IMG/VR virus record: IMGVR_UViG_3300025326_000243 | Span: 1 to 20,452 of that record | Strand: one strand, 5' to 3' | DNA length: 20,452 nucleotides | Source of the DNA: a virus | Shown here: positions 1,638-16,291 of the stretch, in pieces | Position numbering within the stretch: the stretch's first letter is position 1 | Layout of the letters: the number at the start of each line of letters is the position of its first letter | Notes under the pieces: model-generated | Databases searched by the model: none | What the model saw: the letters and a program-made list of their open reading frames with translations, nothing else | What the model was told of the DNA's origin: nothing | Program-made: the position numbers and the translations under genes

Positions 1638-3754
1638 GAGATCGTGACTCGCGACCCGCCCTCCCAGGCTTCAGGCGGGACTGACGGACTGGGTGACGCC
1701 GACTCGGACGTGCTCGGTGACTTCGAAGCCGACACGGAGGCGGACTCAGACGCGCTTGGTGACTGCGAGGCCGACGGAGAGATCGACAGAGACGTCGACG
1801 CGCTTGGCGACGTTGAAGCGCTAGGTGACTTCGATGCTGATACTGAGGCACTCGGTGATGTCGCCGCCGGCATCGACAGCGTTCGGAAGAGGGGCTGGAA
1901 CTCGCAGATCGCCACCCCGCGGTCGCGCCACCATACTCGTTTACCCTCCGGGTTGTCGACCGTGAGCTCGTCCGCGACGCGGGTGATCTGCGCCCCGAGG
2001 GTCACGAGGACAGGCTTGGCGCCGTACGCCCCGAGCTGAACGCTCACGAGGCCCAGGATGAACGTGCCGTTGATCACGGAGGTAGACCGCCCGATCTTGA
2101 CCGTGTATGTGGGCGGCGAATCAGCGTCGCGGTCACACGGGATCGCGTCCATCACGAGTTCGCCGAACGGCTCCGCGGATGATATGTCGTTGTAGGTAAC
2201 GGTCGGGGTCCAAATCCGGGCCGCTTCGTCCCAATACTCGGTGAACGCACCGCCGAACGTACCGATTCGCTTGAGCTGGAACTCCAGGTGGTTCGCGGCC
2301 GGGTCGCTGACGCTCGAGTTCCGCACACGCGCGGTCACGCTGATGAACTTCCCGGTGTTATGGTTGATGGCTCCGATGCCCTGCTGCCACGCGCGCTTAC
2401 CGGCGCTGTAATCAACCTCCAAAGCCTCAAGGTAGCCGAGCTCGTCGACCATCCCGTTCCCGGTGGTGTTCGTTACGGTGACCGTCCCACCCGAATCGAC
2501 AACAGTCCAGGCTGCATTCCCGAGATTCGAGTTCCTAAGCACGATCTCGGTGTCGTTGCCGTCACACACCGCTAGCCCATCGCTCGATAAGTTCGGCGAG
2601 TCCGGCAATACGCGCACGAGCTGACCGTCTCCAGGCCGGCGCGACCACGCGTTCTGATTCCGACTGTGGAGGAACCCGCCGCCCTTATCGAGGTAGGCCA
2701 GGCCACTCATCTCTGGCGTCCATGCCGCGTCGATCATGAACGCGCCCCACAGGTTCGTCACCACGTCCTGCAGGTCGAAGAGCTCGTCCACATACTTGAA
2801 GCTCTCAGGCCAGATCGTGCGCTGCAAGACCTGCGCTGGTCGGCGCGCCAACTTTTCCGCCCCCCACCCGCGCTCGTCGGACGTCGGACCCTGGGAGTGC
2901 TGAATATACGCACGCTCACCCATCCCGATAGGTGCCTGGTGCGCCGGCATATTCAGGCTGATAATGTTGCGGGCCTTCCGGTAGAGGCGCAACGTGTGCG
3001 ACGCATCCTCGCGCACATCGTCAACGTAACCGCCGAGGTCCTCGACCTCGAGCTCTACGTGGAAGTGAAAGACCCGAAGCCTGGGGTTCGACGCCGAGGG
3101 TGAGTAGGCTGGCTGGGCGACGTCGACCTGCACGCCGGCATCGAGCGTGGCTAGATCAGCCAGCTCCCAGGGCCCACCCTCCGGGTGGCCGGTCGTCTCG
3201 TAGGTGATGTGTATTACGCCGTCGTAACCGGTGCCGCAGTTCGGCTGAGTCGAGTTGCAGTAGCGGTTGCCAACCGGGTTCCCCGTGAACTCGTCGTAGC
3301 CGCCTTCCGTCATCGGCGAGTAAATGTAGCCATCTTTCGCGCGATTGCGGATCGCGATCTTGACCTGCGGGCCGTGCTCGTTCGTCAGCCCCGATCCCAG
3401 GTCAACCGGGAATATCCATGGGTTCGACCCGAGCGCGCCGTAGTCCCAGTAAGCGTGGAATGTCACCTTGTTGTAGCGGGCGAGCGTCGGCGGCGCGTCG
3501 AACAGACACGTCATCCACGCCTGACAGCCAAAGTTTCGCAGCATCCACGTCTCGGTGTAGGAGCAGTTATTACCGAGGCCGCAGCCGACTTCTGCAAAGG
3601 TGGCGCTGCCTCCGTCGCGCCAAGCCTCGAAAGCAGAGCTGACGGGCGGGTTCCAGAAGATGAAGCCGCTCGACCCGGAGTTAGAACCGTCGTGGCGCGT
3701 ACCCGTGTTGACGGAGTCAGCGCGCGGAAAGAGGTTGACAGCGCGGGTCGTCAC
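1634..3754 (-). CDS. Minor tail / receptor-binding type protein with C-terminal Ser-rich tract
   Basis: This is a 706-aa protein with a GTG start preceded by AAGGA. It overlaps the 44-aa gene upstream and the fibre gene downstream by four bases each. The N-terminal ~180 residues are aromatic and contain several Cys (58, 64, 77, 83, 166, 173), unusual for a tail protein. Residues ~400-590 alternate short beta strands (AWTVVDSGGTVTVTN, KFISVTARVRN, TYTVKIGRS, FILGLVSVQLG), like a carbohydrate-binding jelly-roll module. Residues 633-691 are a Ser/Pro/Ala tract with Lys, Glu, Thr and Gln substitutions. A non-repetitive 15-residue tail ending in SRVTIS follows. A mini SPSAS also occurs at 218-222. 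Its place between hub and fibre genes suggests a tail-tip structural or adhesion protein. Family membership is inferred from context and fold pattern only. Confidence 0.8.
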   Translation of the reverse strand: MTTRAVNLFPRADSVNTGTRHDGSNSGSSGFIFWNPPVSSAFEAWRDGGSATFAEVGCGLGNNCSYTETWMLRNFGCQAWMTCLFDAPPTLARYNKVTFHAYWDYGALGSNPWIFPVDLGSGLTNEHGPQVKIAIRNRAKDGYIYSPMTEGGYDEFTGNPVGNRYCNSTQPNCGTGYDGVIHITYETTGHPEGGPWELADLATLDAGVQVDVAQPAYSPSASNPRLRVFHFHVELEVEDLGGYVDDVREDASHTLRLYRKARNIISLNMPAHQAPIGMGERAYIQHSQGPTSDERGWGAEKLARRPAQVLQRTIWPESFKYVDELFDLQDVVTNLWGAFMIDAAWTPEMSGLAYLDKGGGFLHSRNQNAWSRRPGDGQLVRVLPDSPNLSSDGLAVCDGNDTEIVLRNSNLGNAAWTVVDSGGTVTVTNTTGNGMVDELGYLEALEVDYSAGKRAWQQGIGAINHNTGKFISVTARVRNSSVSDPAANHLEFQLKRIGTFGGAFTEYWDEAARIWTPTVTYNDISSAEPFGELVMDAIPCDRDADSPPTYTVKIGRSTSVINGTFILGLVSVQLGAYGAKPVLVTLGAQITRVADELTVDNPEGKRVWWRDRGVAICEFQPLFRTLSMPAATSPSASVSASKSPSASTSPSASTSLSISPSASQSPSASESASVSASKSPSTSESASPSPSVPPEAWEGGSRVTIS
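1682..1858 (-). repeat. SPSAS-type Ser/Ala/Pro tract in the 706-aa tail protein
   Basis: The stretch encodes 59 residues, mostly SPSAS or SASxS units with periodic K, E, T, Q and I substitutions. Serine is encoded by both TCN and AGY codons (TCA, TCG, TCC, TCT, AGC, AGT), so the repetition is stronger in protein than in DNA. Confidence 0.9.
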
Positions 3755-3885
3755 CGGGGATCCTTGAAGGTGGTATCAACCGGCGGCCGCGGCTCAGGGT
3801 CGCGTCGCCACGTCGGTAAGAACAGCTCGCGTGGCTCGCCCGTATCCTCGAAGACGCGCTCCTTCGGGTCGTGCTGAATTGTCAT
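3751..3885 (-). CDS. Small 44-aa Pro-rich hypothetical protein
   Basis: An open frame of 44 codons runs from ATG 3885 to TGA 3751-3753. Its ATG overlaps the stop of the hub-like gene (ATGA). Its TGA overlaps the GTG start of the 706-aa gene (GTGA). It therefore fits exactly into the only gap between these genes, in the same style as the rest of the operon. The product starts MTIQHDPKERVFEDTGE and is rich in Pro, Arg and Asp, with no membrane segment or Cys. I do not recognise the family. It may be a small tail-tip component, or may serve mainly for translational coupling. Confidence 0.65.
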   Translation of the reverse strand: MTIQHDPKERVFEDTGEPRELFLPTWRRDPEPRPPVDTTFKDPR

Positions 3886-5288
3886 GACGGGCTCGGCGAG
3901 GCTGACGGCGAAGCAGAATGCGACGGCGACGTTCCGACGGCGCCGATCTTATATCGACCGTGAGACCACACGTTCGGCACGTCTATCAGTACGTGCGGGT
4001 CGAGACGAAGCGTTAAGTCGTGCGCCTCATATGAGGCGAGAAACTTCTGCTCAGCCGGCGAGTAAAGGTAGTCGACCTTCACCTTGTCGACTAACTCCCT
4101 GCGGTCGCCCGGCCTGAACTCGAACTTCCCCGCCTCGCAGTACACGTCGGCTCGCACGCGGTCGGCAGGAGGGTCGTCATCGGCGTAGTCGATGATGGTG
4201 ATAGCGACGGTCCCGCTCGGCGTCCAGAACATCCTGACGTACGGGTAGGAGTCGAGGAACGACTCGACCACGTCGAGCAGCGTCGGATTATTGCGCTCTC
4301 CCCCGATGCGCTTCCCGCAGTCGTACCCGTGGAGGTTAAAGAAAGTCTCGACCTCGTCCCACGTGTCGGCGTCGATGCGCGAGTGAGGCCCCACCCAGAC
4401 CCCGTCGCGGTTGTCACGCAGCCCGTACTCCTCCATGATCGTCCGGAGCTGACGAACCGGGTTGACCATCGTGGCGCCAACCTGTCCGTCTTGAGATGGG
4501 CCATCGAAGTCAAACGACACGACCTGCCCGTGGTCAGGCGCGTTCGCTTTAGCGACCTGTATTACAGTCATGAGCGTCCCGCCGAGTACCGCCCGCTTGA
4601 CGGTGAAGTTCGCGATCGGTTTCTCGTCTCCGTCATAGTATACGTGCGTCACGATGCCGTTAGTGATCGAGGCAACCCACCAGAATCCGAGGGCATCATC
4701 GTAGCGGATGTTGACGGCCGGTACGAACCCGCGCCTGGTGATCTCGAACCCTGATAGATGACCGAAGCAGGCGGGCATCGCCTTGCCCCAGACTGTCTGG
4801 TCGTCGGCAGTCGCCCAGTCAGATTTGCTAATGAGGCGCTTCGGCACCGATGACTGCATGAAAGCGTCGTCGATCTTCACCAGCACCTCAAGTAACCCAG
4901 GCTTCGCCGTCCAGTCCTCGACTACCCCAGAGAACCACGTCTCCCAGTCTGACTCCACGAGATCTTGAGCGCCGCACCGGATCGTGGCCGCGCTTCCCCG
5001 CGGGTCGTAGGTCTCGACCATCCGGGCTAAAATCCTCTTCTCGTCGATGATCAGCACCGACGTCCGGGTAGGCGAGAGCGTTGACCCGCGCACGCCAGGT
5101 CCGTAGGTGATCTCCTTGAAACCTCCTGCTGGTACGAGCCCTTCTACCGGCCGACCGTCGGAGAGCACTCGCCCCGAAGTGCCGTAACGCCCGGGCGTTA
5201 GGTCTAAGCCGCGGGCTTTCCAGGCGACGTCGAACACCGGGAATACGGAGCCACCAAGCTGAAGAACCTCTCGGAGAGCCGGATTCAC
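3882..5288 (-). CDS. Distal tail / baseplate-hub-like structural protein
   Basis: This is a 468-aa protein with a GTG start and GGAGG eight bases upstream, just inside the tape measure 3' end. It is the first gene after the tape measure protein, where siphophages encode the distal tail or hub protein that closes the tube and anchors fibres. The sequence is a mixed beta protein with many Trp and Tyr. Residues ~55-130 (ITYGPGVRGS ... LLEVLVKIDDAF) and ~170-260 (PACFGHLSGFE ... NFTVKRAVLGG) resemble the N-terminal and PxxxG-type segments of hub/tail-associated proteins; this is inference. The last 15 residues are an abrupt SPSHSASPSASPSPS tail, a short version of the Ser-rich tract in neighbouring virion genes. 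No protease or lysozyme motif is visible. The structural role is well supported by context, the precise name is not. Confidence 0.75.
   Translation of the reverse strand: MNPALREVLQLGGSVFPVFDVAWKARGLDLTPGRYGTSGRVLSDGRPVEGLVPAGGFKEITYGPGVRGSTLSPTRTSVLIIDEKRILARMVETYDPRGSAATIRCGAQDLVESDWETWFSGVVEDWTAKPGLLEVLVKIDDAFMQSSVPKRLISKSDWATADDQTVWGKAMPACFGHLSGFEITRRGFVPAVNIRYDDALGFWWVASITNGIVTHVYYDGDEKPIANFTVKRAVLGGTLMTVIQVAKANAPDHGQVVSFDFDGPSQDGQVGATMVNPVRQLRTIMEEYGLRDNRDGVWVGPHSRIDADTWDEVETFFNLHGYDCGKRIGGERNNPTLLDVVESFLDSYPYVRMFWTPSGTVAITIIDYADDDPPADRVRADVYCEAGKFEFRPGDRRELVDKVKVDYLYSPAEQKFLASYEAHDLTLRLDPHVLIDVPNVWSHGRYKIGAVGTSPSHSASPSASPSPS
3885..3929 (-). repeat. Short C-terminal SPSAS tail of the hub-like protein
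   Basis: The last 15 codons of the hub-like gene encode SPSHSASPSASPSPS and then stop. It is the shortest of the four Ser/Ala/Pro tracts in the window and the only one at an extreme C-terminus with no following folded segment. Confidence 0.85.
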
Positions 5289-5291
5289 GGG

Positions 5292-8200
5292 TTATGCCTC
5301 CGCGTCTGCAAGACGGGAGATCCGGTCCTCAATCGCGTTGGCGATCATGGTGACGGTCATCTCACGGACCTGCGCGGCCGTCTCGGCGGCGACGAGCGGA
5401 TTCTCCTGGATCGCGAGGTTCACGGTGACGTTCGGACGTGACCACCCAGCATCCTTCGGCATCGGCCCGCCCTTCGGGACGACGGCCTCCTCGCCGTGGA
5501 GCATGGCGAGCGTGCCGCGGCCAAAGTCCGTGAAGCCGCCGGTGCCACCCGCGTAACTCTTGGGCGGCTCTCCTTCTCCTCGGACGATGTCGCCGTATTC
5601 TGCTGGAGTCACCCCTCCAACAGCCCCGCCGATGCCTGCAATCGCATTTGCGGCGGTATTCGCAGCGGCAGGGATAGTAGCCCCGAGCACCTTGGCGATG
5701 GCTTCGAGGACCTCCACGACGCGCAGGAGCGGGTCGACCGGAAAGGAGATGCCGGCAGCCTTCGCTTCGTCAATGAGGCTCTGAGTATTCTGGTCGATGG
5801 CGGCGCCGGTCTGCTCGTGGACGCGCTGGATGTTCGCGAGGAGCGGCGCGACTGCCAGGAGCGCGTCACGCTGACTCGCCCCGCCAGCGATCGCCTGCGC
5901 GTAGGCTGATTGAGCGACGGTGCCGAAGTCCTGGAACATCTGGACGTCGAGGTAGCCCGCAGCCGCGATCCCGGCGAGCTGCTGGGCGAACCCGAACGCC
6001 GCGTCGGCCGCGTCGCGCGCGGGGCCGGAGCTGAAAGCGGTGATGACCGACTTAAGCGCATCGGGGATTTTCTCAGGTGCTATGTCCTTGAACGCGTCGA
6101 CCGCGGCACCGATGCCCTGCGTCGCCGCGATGGCTGCGAACGAGGTGGCGAAGATCCGCCCCGCAGCCTCTCCGGCCCCTGCCAGCTTGCCAGCTGACGC
6201 CTGGACGCCCGAGAGGATCGTTGAGACGGCGTTAGCCTGCTCTTGGATTTTCTTGTTCTCAGCCTCGAGGACCTCGGAGAGCTTGAAGTGTTCGGCAGCC
6301 TTCTTGAGCGTAATCCCCATCTTCTTGGCATACTCTGCGACCTGCTTAGCCATCTCTTCGCCTACGTCGTGGCCGAAGACTTTTCCGATCACCTTGGCAT
6401 CCTTCTGCCACTGAGGCTTCTTGAACACGCTGATGAGCGTCTTCGCCAGCCCGGTCGCACCAGCGAGGATCGCGCCGAACATGTCGCCCTTTGACAGCGC
6501 GCTGAAGACGCCCTGCGCCGTGTGTGCCAAGCCAGACATGAGCTTGATCGACTTACCGATTCCGGACTCAGCTTTTCCGCCGAGCGAGGCGAAGATGTCG
6601 CCGATCGCGTCGATGCCGCTCGCGATGTTGCCAGCGATGCCCGCGGCTTTTTCCATTCCCTTAGCAAAGTCGGACGTCCCGAGTGCAGCTTTCTTCAGCG
6701 CTTCCACCTGTTCCTTTGTAAACTCCACGCCAGAGCTAAGCAGGTCATTGATGGCCCTGTTATTCGCGATGCGCTCCTGTTCGGCAGCCAGAGCCTGCGC
6801 GGCTATATCTTCCGCACGTGACGCCGCGAGCGCCGGGTCCTTAGAGCTAGCGAGCAACTTTTCTCTTGCAGCGGCAGCCTGCGAAAGGATGACATCCCGG
6901 ATCTCCTTCTGGCGGGTGAGGTCTTTCTCTAGAAGAGCGTTCTGCTGAGCTACCTGTTTATTTGCGTCGTTGATCTTCTGCCCGATGTCCGTCCAGTTTT
7001 GACCAGTGAGGATAGCCTCATCTCGCATCTTTTCAAGGTTTGAGATGTCGGCAGATGTAATGATTCCGTGTCCAGCTCCCGCAGCGAGAACCTTCTGGAT
7101 GTTGGCGAGGAACTCAGCGCTTTCCTTGGCCTTCGCGAGGGGAAGTAAGCCATGCTCAAGAGCAAAGGAGTAGTCTCTCGCGGCGAGGGCCGCGTCCTTC
7201 GTCGCGTCAGCCAACTTCAGTGCGTTGTCTCGGACGGTAGCTGCTTGCGTAGCTTGCCGCGAGTACTCCTCTGCGGTCATACCCGTCACAACCGCATTCT
7301 GCAGTTGCACCTTGAGGGTGTCGATGGTCGCGGTGTAGGTGTCTCTCGCAGCTTTGCTAGAAGCATCGTAAGCAATGCCGATCTTCTCGACCTCGGTCGC
7401 AGTCGCATTCAGCGTGACGGACAGGATGGCAGCCTGCGCCGCTTGGTTCATCGTTCGGTTAGTGATATCCTGCGTAGTGATGCGGAGCCGCTCCTGAGTA
7501 TTTTCTATAGTTTGCTGCGTAGCAGCCTGCTGTAACTGTACCTCTAGCTGCTCCTTAGCCGCCTGGGTCCCTTGCATCTGCGCGTCTTTGGCTAAGTTGA
7601 GTAGTCCTACATTAGCTTCATCTTGCTTAGCTGCCTCCTGTGCAAGGACTACTTTCTCATTGAGCCCCCGGATCACAGAACCGTAGGCTTCTTCTGCTGC
7701 GGCCTTCGCTACGTTATATTTCGCTGCAGACTCAGCGATGGCACCTCCCTCCTTCGCAGTCGCAGCCACGAGCTGAAGTTTCATCCCGATCAGCTTAGCT
7801 TCACTGGCTGCCTTCTCCGACGCGAGCGCGCGGAACGCGCCCGCCTCCGCTGCGGTGCTTAGCTCGATGCCAGGTATAGCCCCGCCTTGGACTGCCTCTT
7901 TTCTGGCCGCCTCAAGTGCTTGAGATTCTGCTGCTTTGGCAGCTATACTCGCTTTCCACGCGGCCGTACCCATCTCAGTAGCTTTCGTCAAGCGCTTGGT
8001 GCGCTCCTCAGTCGACTCGATCGACTCCCCGAGATTCTTCCACGCCCCCTTAAAGTTACCGCTCAAAAGGTTCCCGGTCATACCGAGCATCGAATCGGCA
8101 TAGTTGACGAGGTACTGTGCGCCTGTGTCGAGCGCCCGCGACAGACCTGGAAGATATTGGTCTATCATCGAACGGACCCACTCACCGAACTTGTACCCCG

Positions 8201-9470
8201 CGTATAAAGCAGCGAGGGCAGCCGCGCCCCACAGCGTCCAGACTCCCGCGGTCTTCAACAAGTTCCCCGCCACGTCCTTGATATTGATGCCCATATTGGC
8301 GAGGATCGTAGCGATTCCAGATAACGGCCCGATCGTAGCAGCTGCAGCGCCAGCAGCGACCGCGCCAACCGACGCCAGCACTCCAAGCACTGCACGAACT
8401 GGAGCGGGCATATCCGCTATTTTCTTTGACAGCGCGCCGAAAGCGTCGGTCAACCCGATAACTGACTCTTTGACAGTCGCCGAGCCCGTCACTGACGTCG
8501 CCATATTATTGACGAGGCCCTCAAGGGTCAACTTGAGCTCGCCGATGGCATCCCCAAGGTCGTCGGCGGCCTTCACGGTTGCCGGATCCATCACAGCGCC
8601 GAGGTCTTTAGCGCGCTGCATTACCTCTTTGAGGTGATTGCCGAGCGGGATGAGCTGTGCGCCGCCTCGGCCGAGAAGCTGCATCGCGAGAGTAGTCCTC
8701 TTAGCCGGATCCTCCATGGCCGCGAGGCGTATCACGATCTCCTGGAGCTGCTTCTCGGGGGCCAAGCTCCTCATTTCTGCGGTTGACGTCCCAAGTTTTT
8801 GAAGAGCCGCGCTCACCCCGTCACTGTTGACCGACATCGCGCGCTGGAGTCGCATCAGCGCGAAAGCGATCTGATGACCTGACAGACCTACAGCTTCCCC
8901 CGCGAAGGCAAACTGTTGTAGCGCATCTGTCGCGATCCCAGTTTGGTTCGACAGCTCGTCCAGCTCACCTGACACACGGAGAACGTGTGTAACAGCCGCG
9001 ATTATCAAGCCAGAAACGACGACGAGCGTTTGGCCCATGGCCTCGTGCGCATCTGCTACGGCCTTAACAGCTTCTTCCTCAAGCTTGTGCGCCCGGGCGG
9101 CATCTTCAGCGACCGCGGCTTCTTGATCCTGAGCTATTACAAACTCCGTTATCTGATCTGTCAGCTGTATCAGCGAGGCAGTTTGCTCTTCGTTGAGTCC
9201 TATAGACTTGAGCTGAGCTTCGATGGACTCCCGTAACGTTTCTGTCCCTTCACTTACTACCTCTTCTAGACCAGCCTGCTTTTCAATAATCTCTTGCAGA
9301 GAAGCTTCAAGAAACTTGAAGCCTGCAGCCGCTTCTTGGGCGGCATTAGTAGACTTTCCTATCTCTTCTGCTGCGCTGCTGACGGCCGCAGCAACTTGGT
9401 CCAGTACAGGGGATATCTCGTCGCGGAGCTTCAGGGCTGCGCTGATCGTCCCAACGTCGATGTCAGCCAC
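5292..9470 (-). CDS. Tail length tape measure protein
   Basis: This 1392-aa protein is the largest here and lies directly after the frameshifted chaperone pair, the standard siphophage order. It has a GTG start with AAGGAG ten bases upstream; the start overlaps the stop region of the chaperone extension. It is Ala-rich and mostly helical, with long coiled-coil stretches (residues ~20-145 and ~480-900). Residues ~168-212 (DELSNQTGIA ... RLQRAM) match the conserved TP901-type tape measure core. Hydrophobic segments lie at ~148-160, ~360-391 and ~407-427, as expected for a protein inserted in the host membrane during DNA injection. Near the C-terminus a GGTGGFTDFG ... LHGEEAVVPKGG motif is typical of tape measure proteins. 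By the common rule of about 0.15 nm per residue, the tail would be near 200 nm. No muralytic motif is evident. Confidence 0.95.
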   Translation of the reverse strand: MADIDVGTISAALKLRDEISPVLDQVAAAVSSAAEEIGKSTNAAQEAAAGFKFLEASLQEIIEKQAGLEEVVSEGTETLRESIEAQLKSIGLNEEQTASLIQLTDQITEFVIAQDQEAAVAEDAARAHKLEEEAVKAVADAHEAMGQTLVVVSGLIIAAVTHVLRVSGELDELSNQTGIATDALQQFAFAGEAVGLSGHQIAFALMRLQRAMSVNSDGVSAALQKLGTSTAEMRSLAPEKQLQEIVIRLAAMEDPAKRTTLAMQLLGRGGAQLIPLGNHLKEVMQRAKDLGAVMDPATVKAADDLGDAIGELKLTLEGLVNNMATSVTGSATVKESVIGLTDAFGALSKKIADMPAPVRAVLGVLASVGAVAAGAAAATIGPLSGIATILANMGINIKDVAGNLLKTAGVWTLWGAAALAALYAGYKFGEWVRSMIDQYLPGLSRALDTGAQYLVNYADSMLGMTGNLLSGNFKGAWKNLGESIESTEERTKRLTKATEMGTAAWKASIAAKAAESQALEAARKEAVQGGAIPGIELSTAAEAGAFRALASEKAASEAKLIGMKLQLVAATAKEGGAIAESAAKYNVAKAAAEEAYGSVIRGLNEKVVLAQEAAKQDEANVGLLNLAKDAQMQGTQAAKEQLEVQLQQAATQQTIENTQERLRITTQDITNRTMNQAAQAAILSVTLNATATEVEKIGIAYDASSKAARDTYTATIDTLKVQLQNAVVTGMTAEEYSRQATQAATVRDNALKLADATKDAALAARDYSFALEHGLLPLAKAKESAEFLANIQKVLAAGAGHGIITSADISNLEKMRDEAILTGQNWTDIGQKINDANKQVAQQNALLEKDLTRQKEIRDVILSQAAAAREKLLASSKDPALAASRAEDIAAQALAAEQERIANNRAINDLLSSGVEFTKEQVEALKKAALGTSDFAKGMEKAAGIAGNIASGIDAIGDIFASLGGKAESGIGKSIKLMSGLAHTAQGVFSALSKGDMFGAILAGATGLAKTLISVFKKPQWQKDAKVIGKVFGHDVGEEMAKQVAEYAKKMGITLKKAAEHFKLSEVLEAENKKIQEQANAVSTILSGVQASAGKLAGAGEAAGRIFATSFAAIAATQGIGAAVDAFKDIAPEKIPDALKSVITAFSSGPARDAADAAFGFAQQLAGIAAAGYLDVQMFQDFGTVAQSAYAQAIAGGASQRDALLAVAPLLANIQRVHEQTGAAIDQNTQSLIDEAKAAGISFPVDPLLRVVEVLEAIAKVLGATIPAAANTAANAIAGIGGAVGGVTPAEYGDIVRGEGEPPKSYAGGTGGFTDFGRGTLAMLHGEEAVVPKGGPMPKDAGWSRPNVTVNLAIQENPLVAAETAAQVREMTVTMIANAIEDRISRLADAEA

Positions 9471-10238
9471 GGCTGATCTTCTCCTTGTGCTCCGCCTCGA
9501 CTTGCGCGATTCGCTTCTGATGTAGGTCGAAAGTATTACGCTCGACCTGCTCCATCATCGGCGAGCCGCGCCACGGCTTGAGGTCATCGGGACTCTTCGT
9601 ATCTCGGAACGCGCGATGTGCGTCGGCGTAACGCAGCATAGCTGCGCACTCGATCGCCGAGCGCTCAGGATCGCGATCCAGGTCCCGTGCCACCTGGGAC
9701 GGTAGAACGTGGTAGGTGTTCGCCAGCACCGCCAAGGTCCACAGCCTCCCAACGTCCGGGTCGTCCGGCTCCTCCTGGTCAAGGAGCTGATGGAGGGACC
9801 TCAGACGTTTTTTGACTTCGTCTCCTCAGCGGCAGGATCAATCGCGGGCAGCGACAGGTCGAGGATCGCTTCGCAGAGCTGTTGCGCGGCCTGCTCGTCG
9901 AGATCCTCGATGCTCTCCGGGCAAAGCTTCTCCGCTGCGGTCCAGGATACGATGCCCTTGTTGAGGACCGTCTGGCGGTCATACGACGTGTAGCGAGCCT
10001 TCCGCTTCTCATTAGCGGTCAGCTCTGCGGGCTTCTCCTCCGTCTTCTTCTCGTCGGCTGCGTCGCGGAATGACTTGATCATCTCGGATCCCATCTTGGA
10101 CGAGAATCCGATGACCGTGAGCTGACGGGTCTCCGCTGCCTTCTCAAGAGCCAGGGCAGACAGCTTTCGGACAACCACCGACACGAAACCGTCCGGGTCT
10201 TCGACCTGGACGGTTGAAGTCACGCGTGATGCGAACAT
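9463..10238 (-). CDS. Tail assembly chaperone, frameshifted long form (gpGT-like)
   Basis: The long product forms by -1 slippage at AAAAAAC (9807-9813) near the end of the short chaperone gene. About 144 codons of the first frame join 114 codons of the second, giving roughly 258 residues ending at TGA 9463-9465. The second frame has an upstream in-frame stop at 9826-9828 and no good start of its own before TTG 9733-9735. It runs straight through the slippery site as KKRLRSLHQLLDQ. The frame relation (codon first bases shift from 2 to 0 modulo 3) is exactly a -1 shift. The extension is charged and helical (ARDLDRDPERSAIECAAMLRYADAHRAF), as in T extensions. In lambda-like phages the G and GT products bind the tape measure and recruit tube subunits. 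The next gene is the tape measure. Confidence 0.88.
9801..10238 (-). CDS. Tail assembly chaperone, short form (gpG-like)
   Basis: This 145-aa protein lies between the tail tube and tape measure genes, the fixed place of the G/GT pair. I chose ATG 10238 because AAGGAG sits seven bases upstream; an open extension further upstream lacks such a site. The protein has an N-terminal beta region (VTSTVQVEDPDGFVSVVVRKLSAL), a central charged linker with many Lys and Glu (residues ~60-82) and a helical end (EDLDEQAAQQLCEAILDLSLP) typical of this family. It ends at TGA 9801-9803, two codons after the slippery heptamer. It most likely binds the tape measure during tail assembly and is absent from the virion. 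Confidence 0.88.
   Translation of the reverse strand: MFASRVTSTVQVEDPDGFVSVVVRKLSALALEKAAETRQLTVIGFSSKMGSEMIKSFRDAADEKKTEEKPAELTANEKRKARYTSYDRQTVLNKGIVSWTAAEKLCPESIEDLDEQAAQQLCEAILDLSLPAIDPAAEETKSKNV
9807..9813 (-). other. Programmed -1 ribosomal frameshift site (A AAA AAC)
   Basis: Read on the minus strand in the zero frame, the codons are TCA AAA AAC GTC TGA. The heptamer A AAA AAC is the classic X XXY YYZ slippery sequence and lies two codons before the stop of the short chaperone. Slipping back one base enters the long chaperone frame, which is open here and for 114 further codons. Confidence 0.9.
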
Positions 10239-10321
10239 GCTACGTCTCCTTGGAAGAGCCACCTCGGGAGGTCGGGCGGGATTGCCCGGCGAACCGTCGG
10301 GGCTGAAGCTCTACGAATCCT
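10239..10321 (-). other. Intergenic leader of the chaperone gene
   Basis: This 83-base gap is one of the longer gaps in the tail operon. It contains two short GC-rich inverted repeats (ACCT/AGGT around 10260-10271 and CGGGC/GCCCG around 10273-10288) and the AAGGAG ribosome site for the chaperone. No U-run follows, so I do not call a terminator. The stems may tune expression after the abundant tail tube gene. Confidence 0.4.
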
Positions 10322-10750
10322 TTACGCCTCGACCACCGGTCCGGTCGGCAACAGCTTTGCCTCGTACTTCGTCAGCGCGCCGCGGTCGGCCTTGCGGGTG
10401 TACGACGCCAAGAACGTCTCGAACGACGTAGTCTTGCCGCTCGTCCGCCACGTGATTGTGATCGTCCGGGTCGGCGTGTTCGGGTCCTCCGGGACGCGGC
10501 CGGCGAACAGCGAATCAGGGCCTCCAGCTTGGTCATCGTACAAACCACCGATGGTGATCTCACCGAGCTTGCCGATCCCGATGGCGATGTTCTCTTCCCA
10601 CAGGTCGCCGAAGGAGTGCGTCTCCTCGGTGATCTGCTCGACCACGATGTCGTTGATGGTCATGACGAACTGCGAGATGTCAACGGGGGTTCCCCCCGCG
10701 TTGTCATACTCGATCTTTATCTGGCTCGGTGTAGAGTAGCCGGTAGCCAT
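10322..10750 (-). CDS. Tail tube protein (short paralogue)
   Basis: This 142-aa protein has an ATG start preceded by AAGGAGGA at ideal spacing, the strongest ribosome site in the tail region and fitting a highly expressed major tail protein. It is beta-rich, beginning IKIEYDNAGGTPVDISQFVMTINDI, as in many siphophage tail tube proteins. Residues 41-60 (TEETHSFGDLWEENIAIGIG) and 121-132 (ADRGALTKYEAK) are almost identical to the larger paralogue two genes upstream, although the rest has diverged. It directly precedes the tail assembly chaperones. I infer it forms the tube lumen ring. Which paralogue is the main tube subunit and which the minor or decorated one is not settled by sequence. Confidence 0.82.
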   Translation of the reverse strand: MATGYSTPSQIKIEYDNAGGTPVDISQFVMTINDIVVEQITEETHSFGDLWEENIAIGIGKLGEITIGGLYDDQAGGPDSLFAGRVPEDPNTPTRTITITWRTSGKTTSFETFLASYTRKADRGALTKYEAKLLPTGPVVEA

Positions 10751-10752
10751 GT

Positions 10753-10932
10753 TTACTCCTCCTTAATGCTCCAACGGTCTAGTTTACGTCGCAGCCCAAT
10801 CGCGAGCCGGAGGATCGTACGCGCCTCATACTCGCTGTGCTGATCCGAGTCTGACACAATGCGATACGCGAACTTCTCGACGTCGCGGATGGCCGACCGA
10901 ACGTACTCGACATCACGGAGCTGCGATGACAT
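10753..10932 (-). CDS. Small 59-aa hypothetical protein between tail tube genes
   Basis: The frame from ATG 10932 starts 20 bases inside the end of the large tail tube gene and stops at TAA 10753-10755, two bases before the short tube gene. The product (MSSQLRDVEYVRSAIRDVEK ... KLDRWSIKEE) is charged and helical, with ordinary composition, so it looks like a true protein. No good Shine-Dalgarno sequence is seen, so translation may depend on coupling. A TGATG-linked alternative in another frame gives an Arg/Ser-rich, non-protein-like product and was set aside. Function unknown; it could be a small chaperone or tail accessory protein. Confidence 0.55.
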   Translation of the reverse strand: MSSQLRDVEYVRSAIRDVEKFAYRIVSDSDQHSEYEARTILRLAIGLRRKLDRWSIKEE

Positions 10933-11935
10933 ACGGGATGAACCAGAACGCGCCCGGCGACGGCGAAGCTGACGAAGATGGCGAAGCTGAGGCTGACGGC
11001 GTATACGAAGCCGACGCGCTCGGCGACGCCGATCCGCTCGGCGACTTAGACGGCGAATCCGAGCCGCTGATTGACGCGCTCGGCGTGGGGCTTCCGCTCG
11101 CGCTCGGCGAGGCGGAAACAGAGGGTGTTGGGCTCTCGCTGGCGCTCGGCGAAGCCGACGCCGACGGTGACGCCGAGGCAGAGGGCGACTTCGAGGAAGA
11201 TTCAGAGGCCGACGGCGATGCTGATGCACTGGTAAAGTCCCACCTGATCGCAAGGAACTTCTTGACGAACCCCGCCACCTTCTTCCGCTCAGCCACTCCG
11301 GCCACGGAGACTGGCGAGAAGGACACCAAGTCTGTCCAGATCGCGCCGTCAGCGCTGTCTTCCACCGTCACCGTGACCTCCTGGAACGATCCAAGGTCTA
11401 GGCCAGGGACGTGCAGGTCAAAGATCCCTCCGACCTTCCCGCCGCGATCGACCGGCGTGCTCTCGGTATTTCCCGGGTCAGCCGTCTCGACGTCCAGGCC
11501 GTGGAGCAACCGCCCCTCAATGCGGAGAGGGTCGGTATCGCCGACGTCGCGCGTCATCACGTACTTCGCGTTCGCCTTGGTGAGCGCGCCGCGATCCGCG
11601 ATCCTCGTCCAAATCGCTGCAAGGGCGCCGTCCATCATCACGGCCTTCTCGCCAATCTCGTCACCTGCGAAACCGTACGACACGAGCTGACGAACCGTGC
11701 CCTGCTCCTGGACCGCGTCCATCAGATGGAGCTGTTCCTCGTTGTAGATCCCGCCGCTCGCTTCGAGCGTCACGCTGCCGAGGCCGATCGCGACGTTCTC
11801 CTCCCACAAGTCACCGAACGAGTGGGTCTCCTCAGTCGTCTGCTGGATCGCTTCATCCAGGGTAAAGTGGTCGCCCGACAAGTTCTTTCCGCCGAGGAGC
11901 AGGAAAACTTCCGAAGGTCCGTGCACTGATGCCAT
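10913..11935 (-). CDS. Large tail tube paralogue with Ig-like domain and Ser-rich insertion
   Basis: This 340-aa protein has an ATG start directly after the previous stop (TAAATG) and GGAGAGA upstream. Residues ~20-125 form the tail-tube-like domain; 33-53 and 112-124 nearly match the 142-aa tube paralogue. Residues ~180-235 form an Ig-like/beta-sandwich domain: VTVTVEDSADGAIWTDLVSF, then a final-strand-like FLAIRWDFT. The chain is then broken by a 92-residue Ser/Ala/Pro tract (236-327) and resumes with a short hydrophobic strand, FWFIPYVIAAP, at the C-terminus. Ig-like domains are common C-terminal decorations of tail tube proteins and project outward from the tail. Here the Ser tract would extend from that domain as a flexible brush. 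Stoichiometry relative to the short paralogue is unknown. Confidence 0.82.
   Translation of the reverse strand: MASVHGPSEVFLLLGGKNLSGDHFTLDEAIQQTTEETHSFGDLWEENVAIGLGSVTLEASGGIYNEEQLHLMDAVQEQGTVRQLVSYGFAGDEIGEKAVMMDGALAAIWTRIADRGALTKANAKYVMTRDVGDTDPLRIEGRLLHGLDVETADPGNTESTPVDRGGKVGGIFDLHVPGLDLGSFQEVTVTVEDSADGAIWTDLVSFSPVSVAGVAERKKVAGFVKKFLAIRWDFTSASASPSASESSSKSPSASASPSASASPSASESPTPSVSASPSASGSPTPSASISGSDSPSKSPSGSASPSASASYTPSASASPSSSASPSPGAFWFIPYVIAAP
10955..11230 (-). repeat. SPSAS-type Ser/Ala/Pro tract in the large tail tube protein
   Basis: The stretch encodes 92 residues of SASPSAS units with occasional T, K, E, D, G and Y. It lies between two beta strands of the C-terminal Ig-like domain. 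The opposite strand reads as an artificial Asp/Glu/Ala/Gly-rich frame. Confidence 0.9.
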
Positions 11936-12187
11936 TTAAATCTCTCCCCCAACAGGTGGATCGCCGACTCCGCGGTCAAACTCCAACCCGCAGGAGCAGA
12001 GCACCCGCCAGTTCCCACCGAAGCTCGTCACCACCTGCCGCGCCTGGATACCGGCACCGCAAGCTGCGCACTTGCGCTCGTCCACCAGCGGCTGACCCGT
12101 TACCGACACGAGCTGCTTGCCGCGCTGAATCTGCAGCCGGCGCGCCTCAGAGAGGGACCGCGCGCCGTAGGCTGCTGGATCTTGCAT
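11936..12187 (-). CDS. Small zinc-ribbon protein
   Basis: This 83-aa protein starts at ATG 12187, which overlaps the upstream stop as TGATG and has AAGGAG eight bases upstream; this fixes the start over an open extension to 12208. It has Cys40-x2-Cys43 and Cys64-x-Cys66 (KCAACGAG ... RVLCSCG) about 20 residues apart, a plausible zinc ribbon with one CxC knuckle. The N-terminal half is basic and helical (SLSEARRLQIQRGKQL). It sits between the minor capsid/terminator-like gene and the tail tube. Small zinc-ribbon ORFs are common in phage structural operons but their role is usually unknown. I do not assign a function. Confidence 0.7.
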   Translation of the reverse strand: MQDPAAYGARSLSEARRLQIQRGKQLVSVTGQPLVDERKCAACGAGIQARQVVTSFGGNWRVLCSCGLEFDRGVGDPPVGGEI

Positions 12188-12576
12188 CACTGAAACTCCT
12201 TCTCGCACAGGAAGTTGACTGCGAATACGCAGCGCTCGCTGGAGTCGCGCTCGAGGATGAATGGCACCTGCTGCGGCTTGATCATTCGGTACATCGTTCC
12301 GGACAGGAGCTGACCCTGCACCTTTGGCAGTTCGCGGTAGATCGTCTCGATCACGTCGCGCGGACCCGGGTAGTCGTCCCGGACACCGCGGACCTTGACC
12401 TGCAATCCGGGCAGCTCGTCTTGCAGTCCCGGGAAGCCGAAGCCTGTCTCCGCGCCGCCTCCCGCGTACTCGTTCAAGGCGACCGCTCGGTCAGGCGTCG
12501 CCGGCATCTGGCCCTTCACGATCAGGCCCAGGTCGAGCAGCGCGAGGCGGTCGGCGATCTCGTCGAGCAATGCCAC
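12187..12576 (-). CDS. Minor capsid / tail terminator-like protein
   Basis: This 129-aa protein has a GTG start immediately after the upstream TAA. It begins MALLDEIADRLALLDLGLIVKGQMPATPDRAVALNEYAGG and later has LPGLQVKVRGVRDDYPGPRDVIETIYREL. An N-terminal helix, a PDRAVAL strand, a short VQVxVRG strand and an (A/I)xxxIYxxL helix are the signature of the phage minor capsid/tail terminator group, which caps the tail tube and joins it to the head. Its place just before the tail tube genes agrees. The assignment rests on pattern recognition rather than on any catalytic residue. Confidence 0.75.
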   Translation of the reverse strand: MALLDEIADRLALLDLGLIVKGQMPATPDRAVALNEYAGGGAETGFGFPGLQDELPGLQVKVRGVRDDYPGPRDVIETIYRELPKVQGQLLSGTMYRMIKPQQVPFILERDSSERCVFAVNFLCEKEFQ

Positions 12577-12926
12577 TTACTGGCCTCCGACATATTGGTT
12601 ACCGCGGAACGGGTGGCCAGAGAAGTCGCCGACGTGGCCGCTGCCCGCAGGCATGAACCCGCGGCTGCGGTCATAGATCCACGACTCTCCGTTCGACCGT
12701 CGGACCTCGACAGTCGCTTTCACATCACGGTCTGACTCAGTTCGACCGCGGCTCATCGCGTTGGTGATTCCCTTCACGTCTCCTACCTTCTGTCCGTTCA
12801 CGAAGATCTCATACGGCTCTTCAAAAGGCCTCGCCGCGATCGACTCAGCGCCCGTCGGCTTCCGCTTTTCAGAAGACACGAAGGAGAACTGCTCCTGACG
12901 CATCGCCTTAATCTGCTCGCGCTTCA

Positions 12927-12927
<1 letters not shown>
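12577..12927 (-). CDS. Small hypothetical protein with C-terminal GHPFRGNQY tag
   Basis: This 116-aa protein starts at ATG 12927, which forms TGATG with the stop of the lipoprotein gene and has GGAG upstream; a GTG further upstream at 12948 is less likely. It is charged, with a basic N-terminus (MKREQIKAMRQEQF) and a central segment YEIFVNGQKVGDVKG. It ends VGDFSGHPFRGNQYVGGQ. The same VGDxxGHPFRGNQY ending occurs in the 47-aa ORF 2 kb upstream, with different codons. This motif recurs at protein ends in phage structural operons, from general memory, but its role is not known to me. The gene sits among neck genes and I do not assign a function. Confidence 0.7.
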
Positions 12928-13972
<1,045 letters not shown>

Positions 13973-13976
<4 letters not shown>

Positions 13977-14359
13977 GCTCCGTGCTCCTTCAGGTACTCG
14001 GTGAACCGCTGCGCGACGTGGTTGAAGTACTCCTCCCTCGACGTGAGCACCGCAAGTTCGAGAAACTTCGCCTGGCCGTACTTGTGGAAGGCGTCGAGGT
14101 TCTCGTGGACATAGACGGCGTACGGCGCTGCGGGCCCGCCGACGGTGATCGCGCAGAGCACGTCATCCGCCGTGAATTCCGGCTTGCCGGTGATGTGGCT
14201 ACCCTCGAGCACGCCGGTATCATACGGAGTCATGTCGCGCGAAAATCTCTCGACCTCGAGCGCCGACTCGTAGACGGCCTGGCTGAGCACCTTCTTGGCG
14301 TTCTCGCCGATCGACTTGAGGTTGTCGAGGACCTCCTTGAGCCCTGTGATCTCAGCCAA
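13973..14359 (-). CDS. HK97 gp10-like tail completion / neck protein
   Basis: This 128-aa protein has a probable TTG start at 14359, overlapping the upstream gene, with GAGGT six bases upstream; no better start lies nearby. The sequence fits the HK97-gp10 family: LKEVLDNLKSIGENAKKVLSQAVYESALEVERFSRDMTPYDTGVLEGS, then a strand with VGGPAAPYAVYVHENLDAFHKYGQAKFLELA. The P.DTG.L.. motif and the (Y)A.YVH....... ..G.AKFLE signature are diagnostic. Members act at the head-tail junction or in tail completion. It is about the usual length and neighbours the other connector genes. Confidence 0.88.
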
Positions 14360-14741
14360 CGGCCACCTCGTACATGTAGGGTCGGTTCGTGGTCGGGTCG
14401 GTCAGGCCGCGCACATCCATGATCAGGCCCCACGACCCGTCGGGCAACGTCAGGCGGTCGCGCGGGTCAATCGGCTCGGCCCGGTACGCTGCGCCGTTCG
14501 GGCTGACCGGCGCGATGAGCGTGAGCTGAAAGCGCTGCACGATCTCCTTTCCATCCTTCGCGACCTTCAACGTGTTCTTCGGCTCGATCAGGCACTTCCG
14601 CGTGACCACGGTGTCATAGAGCGGATCGCTGTAGCCCGCCTTGTTACCGATCCAGGCTTCGTGCTGCACGCTTACCTGCAACGACTTGGTGATCCCGTCG
14701 ATCGTCGCGATGCCGGAACGGACCAAGCTATCGAGCCCCAC
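14352..14741 (-). CDS. Head-closure / neck-like protein
   Basis: This 129-aa protein has a GTG start at 14741. It is beta-rich (SLQVSVQHEAWIG, VQRFQLTLIAPV, DRLTLPDGSWGLIMDVRGL), with a central KDGKEI turn. Small beta-barrel proteins at this site, between the connector and the gp10-like gene, are usually head-closure proteins that seal the portal after packaging. DG.WG.I..V.G.. near the C-terminus matches that group loosely. It overlaps the TTG start of the gp10-like gene by eight bases. The role is inferred from position and fold pattern. Confidence 0.7.
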   Translation of the reverse strand: MGLDSLVRSGIATIDGITKSLQVSVQHEAWIGNKAGYSDPLYDTVVTRKCLIEPKNTLKVAKDGKEIVQRFQLTLIAPVSPNGAAYRAEPIDPRDRLTLPDGSWGLIMDVRGLTDPTTNRPYMYEVAVG

Positions 14742-14838
14742 GCTTCCTCTTCAGCTTCTTGAGCTTGATCGTCTTCTCGTAGCGCCCCGGCTTCACAGTC
14801 ACGATGTGCAGCGGCGTCACGACAGAGAGGTCGTTCAT
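14728..14838 (-). CDS. Tiny 36-aa Lys/Arg-rich ORF
   Basis: The frame from ATG 14838 to TAG 14728-14730 encodes MNDLSVVTPLHIVTVK followed by a strongly basic C-terminus (KLKKLKRKRGAR). The ATG overlaps the stop of the 47-aa ORF (ATGA), and the end overlaps the GTG start of the neck gene by 14 bases. AGGGGA lies 11 bases upstream. It fills the only uncovered space here. The high Lys content in a GC-rich genome argues for a real peptide. Family and function unknown; the basic tail could contact DNA or RNA. Confidence 0.5.
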   Translation of the reverse strand: MNDLSVVTPLHIVTVKPGRYEKTIKLKKLKRKRGAR

Positions 14839-14978
14839 GAATACTGGTTTCCCCTGAACGGATGCCCCGGCTTGTCGCCAACTTGGCCACCACCAAGTGC
14901 TGACTTGAACCTTGTAGCCAACTGAGCCAGCTTTTTGTAGTAGTGTGCAGGAGACTTGATCCCGATTTTTCTCATCAT
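14835..14978 (-). CDS. Small 47-aa basic protein with GHPFRGNQY C-terminus
   Basis: The frame from ATG 14978 (ATGATG, overlapping the upstream TGA) to TGA 14835-14837 encodes a basic helix (MMRKIGIKSPAHYYKKLAQL) and ends VGDKPGHPFRGNQYS. The final motif is shared with the 116-aa protein at 12577-12927, with 12 of 14 residues the same (V33-Y46 here). Shared residues often use different codons (CAT/CAC, AGG/CGC, GGA/GGT, CAG/CAA), so this is not a recent DNA copy. It lies among head-tail connector genes. Function unknown. The conserved ending makes the ORF convincing despite its size. Confidence 0.68.
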   Translation of the reverse strand: MMRKIGIKSPAHYYKKLAQLATRFKSALGGGQVGDKPGHPFRGNQYS

Positions 14979-15523
14979 GCTCTCACCAAGTCACGGGTGC
15001 CACGCACTCGGCCGTGCACCCAACCCCACCAGTCGGGGATCATGTTCACGACCGCGTCGGGCACAACCTTCGCCCGGATGGAGCCGACCTGGCCGAAGCT
15101 GATCGATACAGGACCTGCCGTGAGGGACTGGATGCCTTTCGTCTCAATGTCCAGGTCGAGCGTCCGGTCCTCGGTGATGAGCTGCATCGCAAACTCGGCG
15201 GTCGCGTTCTTGAGGCCGAGCGGGATCTCGTCGTTCCCGATGAAGTCCCGATACCGCTCGTCGAGGACGCCGGTGCGGGGCCACTGGAGGATCTGCCCGC
15301 CCTGGCTCCGCGGCACGCGCTGCGTCGTCCACGATGCCCAGGTGTAGAGCCGGTCGAGTAGTCGCGTCGCCTCGATGAGCGCGATCGTCTTCGTCGCGTC
15401 GTCGCTGCCCGTCCATGCTTCGCTGTGCAGCCGCGAGTCGAAGTAGGAGTTTGCCTCTGCCAGCGTGCAGTAGCTATTGGCATTGCCGGCGCCGGGCGTT
15501 GCTACGAGGGTTGGGGTAGCCAT
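14975..15523 (-). CDS. DnaT-like / head-tail connector protein
   Basis: This 182-aa protein begins MATPTLVATPGAGNANSYCTLAEANSYFDSRLH. The pattern of a GxxNANSY start followed by (L/V)AEAN.YF..R.......W and later I..A...LD.LYTW.. is that of phage proteins usually annotated 'DnaT-like ssDNA-binding protein', which in structural operons act as gp6-type head-tail connectors. The C-terminus has LKNATAEFAMQLI and a Trp-rich end (DWWGWVHGRVRG). Its place after the capsid genes and before the gp10-like gene supports a connector role; DNA binding is not shown. ATG 15523 sits four bases after the previous stop. Confidence 0.82.
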   Translation of the reverse strand: MATPTLVATPGAGNANSYCTLAEANSYFDSRLHSEAWTGSDDATKTIALIEATRLLDRLYTWASWTTQRVPRSQGGQILQWPRTGVLDERYRDFIGNDEIPLGLKNATAEFAMQLITEDRTLDLDIETKGIQSLTAGPVSISFGQVGSIRAKVVPDAVVNMIPDWWGWVHGRVRGTRDLVRA

Positions 15524-15526
15524 CTA

Positions 15527-16291
15527 TTACGCGAAGACCCCCGTGAGCGCGACCGAGCTATGAGCGGGATACGGGAAGCCGCTGGTGACCACCTTAACGC
15601 GAAGCCGGTCGCCAATGATCCCGTTGATGATGGTGTTCGCCGAGAGCGAGCCATCAGTCGGCGCGAATGCCTGGCTTGCTGGCGCGATCGCCCGGTTGAC
15701 AGCCGAGACCTTCACGGCGCTCGTCTGAGCGAACTCGAAGTTCATGATGTCGATCCAGTTTGCGCCTCCATCGAGGCTGGTCTGGATGTAGACGTCTAGA
15801 GCTGCGTCGCCAATCGACGGGCTGACCGACTCTGAAGGGCTGACCGATGCCGACGCGCTAACCGACGCTGAAGGACTAGCTGACGCAGATGCCGATGCCG
15901 ACGGGGATTCCGAGGCCGACGCCGACGCGCTTGCTGATGCCGAAGGAGACTCTGAGGCTGAGGGGCTAGCCGACGCAGATGCCGACGCGCTGGCCGATGC
16001 CGACGGGCTGGCCGATGCCGACGGGGTCGCGCTGGCAGATGAAGACGGCGTCTCACTTGGAGTACGCGACGGGCTGGCAGACGGCGTGGAGCTGATTGAT
16101 GCTGACTTGCTGAGCGACTCAGACGTCGACGGCGACGACGAGATAGTATCGTAGATGAACCGCGCCTCGACAGCGACGTACTGCGACCCGCCCGGCGTAA
16201 TGGCGAACTCGTCTCCGACCCACGTGCCGACGGGCCCGAGCTGATGCTTCTCTACGAAGACCTTTTGACGATCAGGGGTCAACGAGCCCAT
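15527..16291 (-). CDS. Structural beta-sandwich protein split by a long Ser-rich tract
   Basis: This 254-aa protein has an ATG start with GGAGG six bases upstream and overlaps the previous gene by 20 bases. Residues 1-50 form a short beta region (KVFVEKHQLGPVGTWVGDEF). Residues 51-159 are an almost pure Ser/Ala/Pro tract. Residues ~162-254 form an Ig-like beta-sandwich (ALDVYIQTSLDGGANWIDIMNF ... DRLRVKVVTSGF ... SSVALTGVF) matching the pattern of the C-terminal domain of the large tail tube protein (V.V..S.DG..W.D...F). It lies just after the decoration-like genes and before the connector, so it may be a head decoration or neck fibre. The folded part is the evidence; the role is inferred. 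Confidence 0.7.
   Translation of the reverse strand: MGSLTPDRQKVFVEKHQLGPVGTWVGDEFAITPGGSQYVAVEARFIYDTISSSPSTSESLSKSASISSTPSASPSRTPSETPSSSASATPSASASPSASASASASASASPSASESPSASASASASASESPSASASASASPSASVSASASVSPSESVSPSIGDAALDVYIQTSLDGGANWIDIMNFEFAQTSAVKVSAVNRAIAPASQAFAPTDGSLSANTIINGIIGDRLRVKVVTSGFPYPAHSSVALTGVFA
15815..16141 (-). repeat. SPSAS-type Ser/Ala/Pro tract, partly repeated at DNA level
   Basis: This is the longest tract of the four, 109 residues with many SASASPSAS units. Unlike the others it includes clear DNA-level repetition: two exact adjacent 18-bp copies at 15990-16007 and 16008-16025. Elsewhere Ser codons are mixed between TCN and AGC/AGT. Confidence 0.9.

Follow-up and report, generated by a model that had tools for sequence, protein, structure and literature searches.

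The 20,452-base window analysed here, the whole of IMG/VR record IMGVR_UViG_3300025326_000243 and probably a fragment carrying structural genes of a phage, raises the question of what role is played by the serine-rich tracts found in four of its genes (g254, g340, g468 and g706). We propose that these tracts are acceptors for a phage-encoded, mucin-type-like O-glycosylation of the virion. On the basis of sequence comparisons and structure prediction, this reading is given a probability of roughly 0.7.

Serine-rich tracts in four genes of the window

The original prediction, made from the sequence of the window, had described mucin-like Ser/Ala/Pro tracts in four structural genes. All four were found in frame within real minus-strand genes, with lengths of 16, 60, 93 and 108 amino acids (aa). 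They are listed below with the genes that carry them, whose assigned roles are reasonable.

15527..16291, minus strand: g254, head/neck-region protein with the 108-aa tract in a loop, between the coat gene g377 and the connector gene g182
15815..16138, minus strand: g254 tract, aa 52-159, (S-x)n, 108 aa, internal; Ser 49%, Ala 23%, Pro 12%
10913..11935, minus strand: g340, major tail protein (phrog_9522, E = 2.5e-12); homologues in L010, L093, L095/G082 and L040
10952..11230, minus strand: g340 tract, aa 236-328, 93 aa, near the C-terminus
3882..5288, minus strand: g468, hub-like protein after the tape-measure gene, named from its position alone
3885..3932, minus strand: g468 tract, aa 453-468, 16 aa, C-terminal (TSPSHSASPSASPSPS)
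1634..3754, minus strand: g706, distal tail protein, named from its position alone
1682..1861, minus strand: g706 tract, about aa 632-691, ~60 aa, followed by 15 residues to the C-terminus

Searches of PHROG and Pfam returned no match for g468 and no family match for g706, and a protein scan with g340 found no close relatives.

Serine makes up 43-50% of each tract, the remainder being mostly alanine and proline. A property that had been overlooked in the original prediction is that Ser/Thr alternates almost strictly with Ala, Pro or another residue. For the three long tracts, switching reached 0.88, 0.95 and 0.93, compared to ~0.50 after shuffling, and none of 20,000 shuffles attained the observed value. 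The alternation was weaker in the 16-aa tract of g468, where it was matched by 11 of 20,000 shuffles.

Distribution of the tracts in phages and bacteria

A search of metagenomic phages had been proposed as a check, and IMG/VR was therefore scanned with a degenerate DNA pattern for SPSASxSPSAS. The tracts proved to be widespread in phage contigs, with at least 119 matching stretches, and are not a feature of one phage only. Some of the matches are chance frames; the majority sit within long open frames that contain tracts, and a contig often has two or more such genes. The 159 distinct tracts of at least 40 aa have a median length of 146 aa (maximum 1488 aa) and are composed of 51% Ser, 15% Pro, 15% Ala and 1% Thr. 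In 32 long contigs the matches were confined to one strand per contig, and a reversed control pattern gave no matches.

PHROG annotation of the tract genes across contigs gave mostly no match, so the virion role of every one of them is putative. In contigs G019 and G020 the first tract gene stands directly after the coat gene (phrog_267). The window, as a fragment made up of structural genes, bears only on tracts in genes of that kind.

Cultured phages searched with the tract itself gave no match, as expected since BLAST filters low-complexity sequence. The minor tail proteins of Streptomyces phages Hiyaa and Galactica (L188 9501-12833 and L189 8522-11833, respectively) share an N-terminal domain with the tract protein of contig G034. 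These Hiyaavirus proteins were rejected as tract carriers: they have the homologous domain, no SPSAS tract, and another repeat of the xTAHAVxxRK type. Bacterial tracts were rejected as a source, most of them being short linkers or lying in doubtful frames. None of the 29 bacterial genomes with such tracts has a true member of the glycosyltransferase family A1 described below, the best matches (E = 4e-12 and 8e-11) falling on a generic GT2 N-terminus.

A glycosyltransferase family accompanies the tracts

The gene content of 28 tract-bearing contigs (34-124 kb) was compared with that of 41 random control contigs (31-82 kb), picked by means of arbitrary words of 14 and 16 bases. Glycosyltransferases of Pfam family GT2 (PF00535) exceeded the cut-off in 27 of the 28 tract contigs, compared to two of the 41 controls. 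Glycosyltransferases of PF00534 did so in just six tract contigs and were set aside. The 20 fully read contigs contain 53 GT2 genes, of which 34 (64%) are no more than five genes away from a tract gene, compared to 28% under the null (0 of 2000 draws), and 14 directly adjoin one (null mean 3.4, maximum 10).

Most of these GT2 genes belong to one family, here called A1, whose members come in a short form (~290 aa) and a long form (~520-620 aa). A profile made from an alignment of this family found members in 26/28 tract contigs and 0/41 controls at E = 1e-3 (Fisher test, 5e-17). The best E-values in the tract contigs, ~1e-104 to 1e-257, are flattered, as many rows of the alignment come from these same contigs, and the evidence therefore lies in the presence count, the zero in the controls and a reciprocal test. 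In the latter, IMG/VR was scanned with A1 without reference to tracts. Of the first 600 pattern matches, at least 577 proved to be relatives; 80 loci were kept, and 13 of these, already in the tract set or taken to duplicate it, were left out (n = 67). A tract of at least 30 aa was present at 52 of the 67 independent A1 loci, compared to none of 137 random loci whose total length was similar (Fisher test, 3e-35). At 27 of 70 A1 loci, the tract is found in the gene that begins immediately after that of the enzyme. A tblastn search with two A1 members against 50,697 phage records found no relative.

Sugar epimerases (PF01370) were detected in ten of the 28 tract contigs and in one of the 41 controls. 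In contig G020 (L170:8826-18163), glycosyltransferases, uridine diphosphate (UDP)-sugar dehydrogenases, epimerases, a methyltransferase and a PF02719 enzyme are located between the head and tail tract genes.

This association bears on the possibility that the tracts serve as simple flexible spacers, or as an entropic brush, without being glycosylated, their Ser/Pro/Ala content just keeping them soluble and unfolded. Disordered linkers typically have such a composition, bacterial genomes contain similar, mostly shorter Ser/Pro/Ala linkers without an A1 enzyme, and the Hiyaavirus minor tail proteins bear another repeat after the homologous N-terminal domain. However, spacers would predict neither the strict alternation of serine nor the two-way association with an enzyme that is GT27-like (see below), and we consider this explanation unlikely.

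Enzyme A1 and the phage of the window

The original prediction had suggested looking for glycosyltransferases elsewhere in the genome. A profile search found no member of family A1 in the 20-kb window, itself a fragment; members are present in the related contigs L093 and L095. Both of these carry a g340 homologue with a tract in the same loop, as well as full-length A1 enzymes (E = 9e-206 and 4e-209, respectively). The L093 contig also has genes related to g142, to g153 and to that for the tape measure, and the L095 contig (G082) has relatives of g142 and g153. In G082, a short A1 gene comes immediately after another tract gene. In both contigs the A1 genes lie upstream of the region that matches the window. 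The phage of the window would thus have an A1-type enzyme outside the sequenced 20 kb and, if the gene order is alike, its gene would sit past the end of the record.

Alternatively, the tracts of this phage might be glycosylated by enzymes of the host rather than its own, which would agree with the lack of A1 in the window and in two tract contigs. This is improbable in view of L093 and L095, which share tail genes and the tract site with the window and encode A1.

Nearest solved relatives of A1

As judged from sequence profile and predicted fold, the nearest solved relatives of A1 are polypeptide N-acetylgalactosaminyltransferases (ppGalNAc-Ts; CAZy family GT27). These enzymes constitute the best 13 PDB matches of profile A1 (GALNT1, E = 8.3e-16) and the first 14 PDB matches of one phage enzyme (E = 9e-6), whereas ordinary GT2 enzymes align just to the first ~100 positions of the profile. 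An AlphaFold2 model of one A1 member had a predicted local distance difference test (pLDDT) score of 88. In its GT-A catalytic fold the model is closest to GalNAc-Ts, which make up all 50 PDB matches listed by Foldseek, with a template modelling (TM) score of 0.67 against the 276-residue chain 4d11_F; the modelled protein is ~14-20% identical to solved GalNAc-Ts. Residues D86, H88 and H248 are invariant in 26 A1 members and align with the DxH motif and the C-terminal His of GALNT enzymes. In Toxoplasma GalNAc-T3, metal is bound by the Asp and His of DXH plus a further His (PMC11074326), and replacement of DxD by DxH has been reported for GT27 and GT60, both of which carry out polypeptide Ser/Thr O-glycosylation (PMC7185993). 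A1 is called GT27-like here, and not a member of GT27, because the ricin lectin domain was not seen.

The C-terminal domain of A1 also occurs as separate open reading frames of ~230-250 aa in many tract contigs (e.g. L145:9145-9855, minus strand), with no Pfam match. Long A1 enzymes (e.g. L147:9385-10941, residues ~121-149) contain a CxxC...CxxC insert that is rubredoxin-like (NF045720, E = 0.006) and absent from the short form.

Phage family 2 glycosyltransferases can act on host surface polysaccharide, and the A1 enzymes may conceivably act on another target, either phage DNA or the surface sugars of the host, and just co-travel with the tracts. However, the nearest solved relatives of A1 act on polypeptide Ser/Thr, as do both families for which DxH is reported, and the enzyme and tract genes adjoin more often than expected by chance. 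We regard such co-travel as very improbable.

Tracts of g254 and g340 as loop insertions

The g254 homologues L003 and L004 are tract-free, with a short GSGGT loop at the tract site. With its tract removed, g254 is 44% identical to L004 over 115 aa through this site (E = 1e-29), without a large gap. Among the homologues of g340, the tract site is occupied by a tract of ~92 aa in L010 and ~70 aa in L093, and by a short TGSGSVT loop in L040. Because the tract-free homologues keep a short loop at the site, the tracts of g254 and g340 are insertions into a loop, and the alignment suggests a surface position for that of g340. Among cultured phages, no homologue was found for g340 or for the portion of g254 following the tract.

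The serine codons of the tracts are mixed (TCN and AGY), and the longest exact DNA words common to the tracts are no longer than under random synonymous recoding, which rules out recent DNA copying between them. A single internal 19-base repeat in g254 slightly exceeds the recoding null. Because the codons are mixed and the shared words fall within this null, the likeness of the tracts has been held, or reached, at the protein level, and the protein pattern is what is kept. The portable module envisaged in the original prediction agrees with the recurrence of tracts in unrelated virion proteins, but not with the absence of DNA copied between the genes. An assembly artefact, named there as a refuting outcome, or a selfish microsatellite expansion would draw on the proneness of repeats to slippage and on the 19-base repeat of g254, and has a negligible probability given the mixed codons, the in-frame position and the independent contigs from other samples in which g340 homologues bear tracts at the same site.

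Proposed mechanism and points against it

According to the glycosylation reading, the long, disordered Ser-x repeats, which sit either within loops or C-terminally in virion proteins, would be dedicated O-glycosylation acceptors. Phage-encoded relatives of polypeptide GalNAc-transferases would probably put sugar on many of the tract serines, and further phage or host enzymes may lengthen it. The outcome would be a mucin-like coat on the particle, which could shield it from proteases or antibodies, or control adsorption. The flexible brush of the original prediction would also fit, whereas its other guesses, phosphorylation and mucus adhesion, gained no support, although no direct test was aimed at them. 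We infer the action of A1 on the tracts, the sugar used and the benefit to the phage. The O-glycosylation that had been guessed at is strongly supported, on comparative grounds, by the two-way association (26/28 vs 0/41; 52/67 vs 0/137) and the adjacency of the genes; no such enzyme is present in the window itself.

Several other observations weigh against this reading. Two of the 28 tract contigs (G013 and G016) lack family A1, and at 15 of the 67 A1 loci the stretch retrieved contains no tract that reaches 30 aa. The control contigs were unmatched for environment or lineage, and a lineage-matched control sought through relatives of the G020 terminase turned up only short contigs or G020 itself. 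The Fisher tests assume independent contigs, and the 20 contigs read form, by eye, ~11 gene-sharing groups. Animal mucins are Thr-rich; the tracts are nearly Thr-free (1.1%). Pfam scans of long A1 members found no ricin-type lectin domain, and the second domain (profile positions ~305-532), searched as a stand-alone copy, has no solved relative. Finally, the structure model of g340 is unusable (pLDDT 31), leaving the alignment as the basis for placing its tract at the surface.

Other genes of the window

Every assignable gene of the window is carried by the minus strand. The set comprises genes for a MuF-like protein, a scaffold-like protein and the P22-like coat, small head genes, g254, the Ad1 connector (phrog_477), neck proteins, a lipoprotein-like gene, two major tail proteins (phrog_9522 and phrog_10528), a probable tape measure gene, g468, g706 and g545. 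Three of these serve as landmarks:

17189..18322, minus strand: major capsid protein, P22-like (Pfam PF11651, E = 7.2e-20; ~50% identity to the coat protein of Vibrio phage SSP002)
14975..15523, minus strand: head-tail connector Ad1, g182 (phrog_477, E = 4.8e-29)
5292..9470, minus strand: probable tape measure protein, 1392 aa, from its length and position, with weak similarity to open reading frames in L040 and L093; followed by g468 and g706

A 349-aa protein encoded in the tail gene region (12927-13976, minus strand) has a signal-peptide-like start and a possible lipobox (FVGCS). It also contains a Pro-Thr repeat (13725-13847), a kind of linker that differs from the Ser tracts. An open frame of 254 aa (10926-11690, plus strand) runs antisense to the g340 tract; it is rich in Asp, Ala, Glu and Gly and looks like a mirror of the repeat and not a gene.

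Comparison with known systems

Mucin-type modification by GalNAc-transferases is regarded as absent from bacteria (PMC5504323). On balance, we lean towards the view that many environmental phages, forming a large and as yet undescribed group, produce "mucins" of their own, (Ser-x)n virion tracts glycosylated by phage relatives of GT27. If this is true, mucin-type-like O-glycosylation extends beyond eukaryotes and is frequent among environmental tailed phages, as judged from at least 577 enzyme relatives, and a widespread low-complexity tract is explained. It would also predict a glycan coat with possible effects on the adsorption, decay and immune recognition of the virion, and would offer soluble bacterial-type enzymes for O-glycoprotein production.

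Phage enzymes glycosylate the virions of mycobacteriophages Che8, Corndog and Myrna, as cited in PMC12363180. The proposed likeness lies in phage-encoded glycosyltransferases, which act there on capsid and tail tube proteins and are encoded here by the relatives L093 and L095, the window itself having none. In contrast to the tract phages, the mycobacteriophage descriptions consulted mention no GT27-like enzyme or (S-x)n acceptor tract, a distinction drawn from the descriptions and not from direct comparison of the enzymes.

The repeats of serine-rich repeat (SRR) glycoproteins alternate as SASxSAS and have their own enzymes, GtfA/GtfB. Like the three long tracts of the window, which alternate as Ser-x (switching 0.88-0.95), these proteins have serine-rich repeats, described as O-glycosylated in PMC6973325. 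However, SRR glycoproteins are cell-surface adhesins with accessory secretion, whereas the tracts belong to phage proteins whose relatives are accompanied by a GT27-like enzyme. The four genes lie in a phage head-tail cluster, g340 being a major tail protein, which places them outside the SRR adhesin class; accessory Sec was not searched for.

With the GT27 enzymes, which start mucin-type O-glycosylation, A1 shares the fold, the DxH motif and the C-terminal His. It differs in having no ricin lectin domain that could be seen and, in its long form, in a Cys-rich insert and a C-terminal domain without a solved relative. The tracts resemble animal mucins in that Ser/Pro/Ala-rich repeats are paired with GT27-type enzymes, a relation that is compositional only, and differ from these secreted animal proteins in being part of phage virions. 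The literature searched, which covered few subscription journals, did not describe a mucin-like acceptor tract with a GT27-like enzyme in uncultured phages. Phage-encoded glycosylation of virions is already known; dedicated mucin-like acceptors accompanied by a GT27-like enzyme appear to be new.

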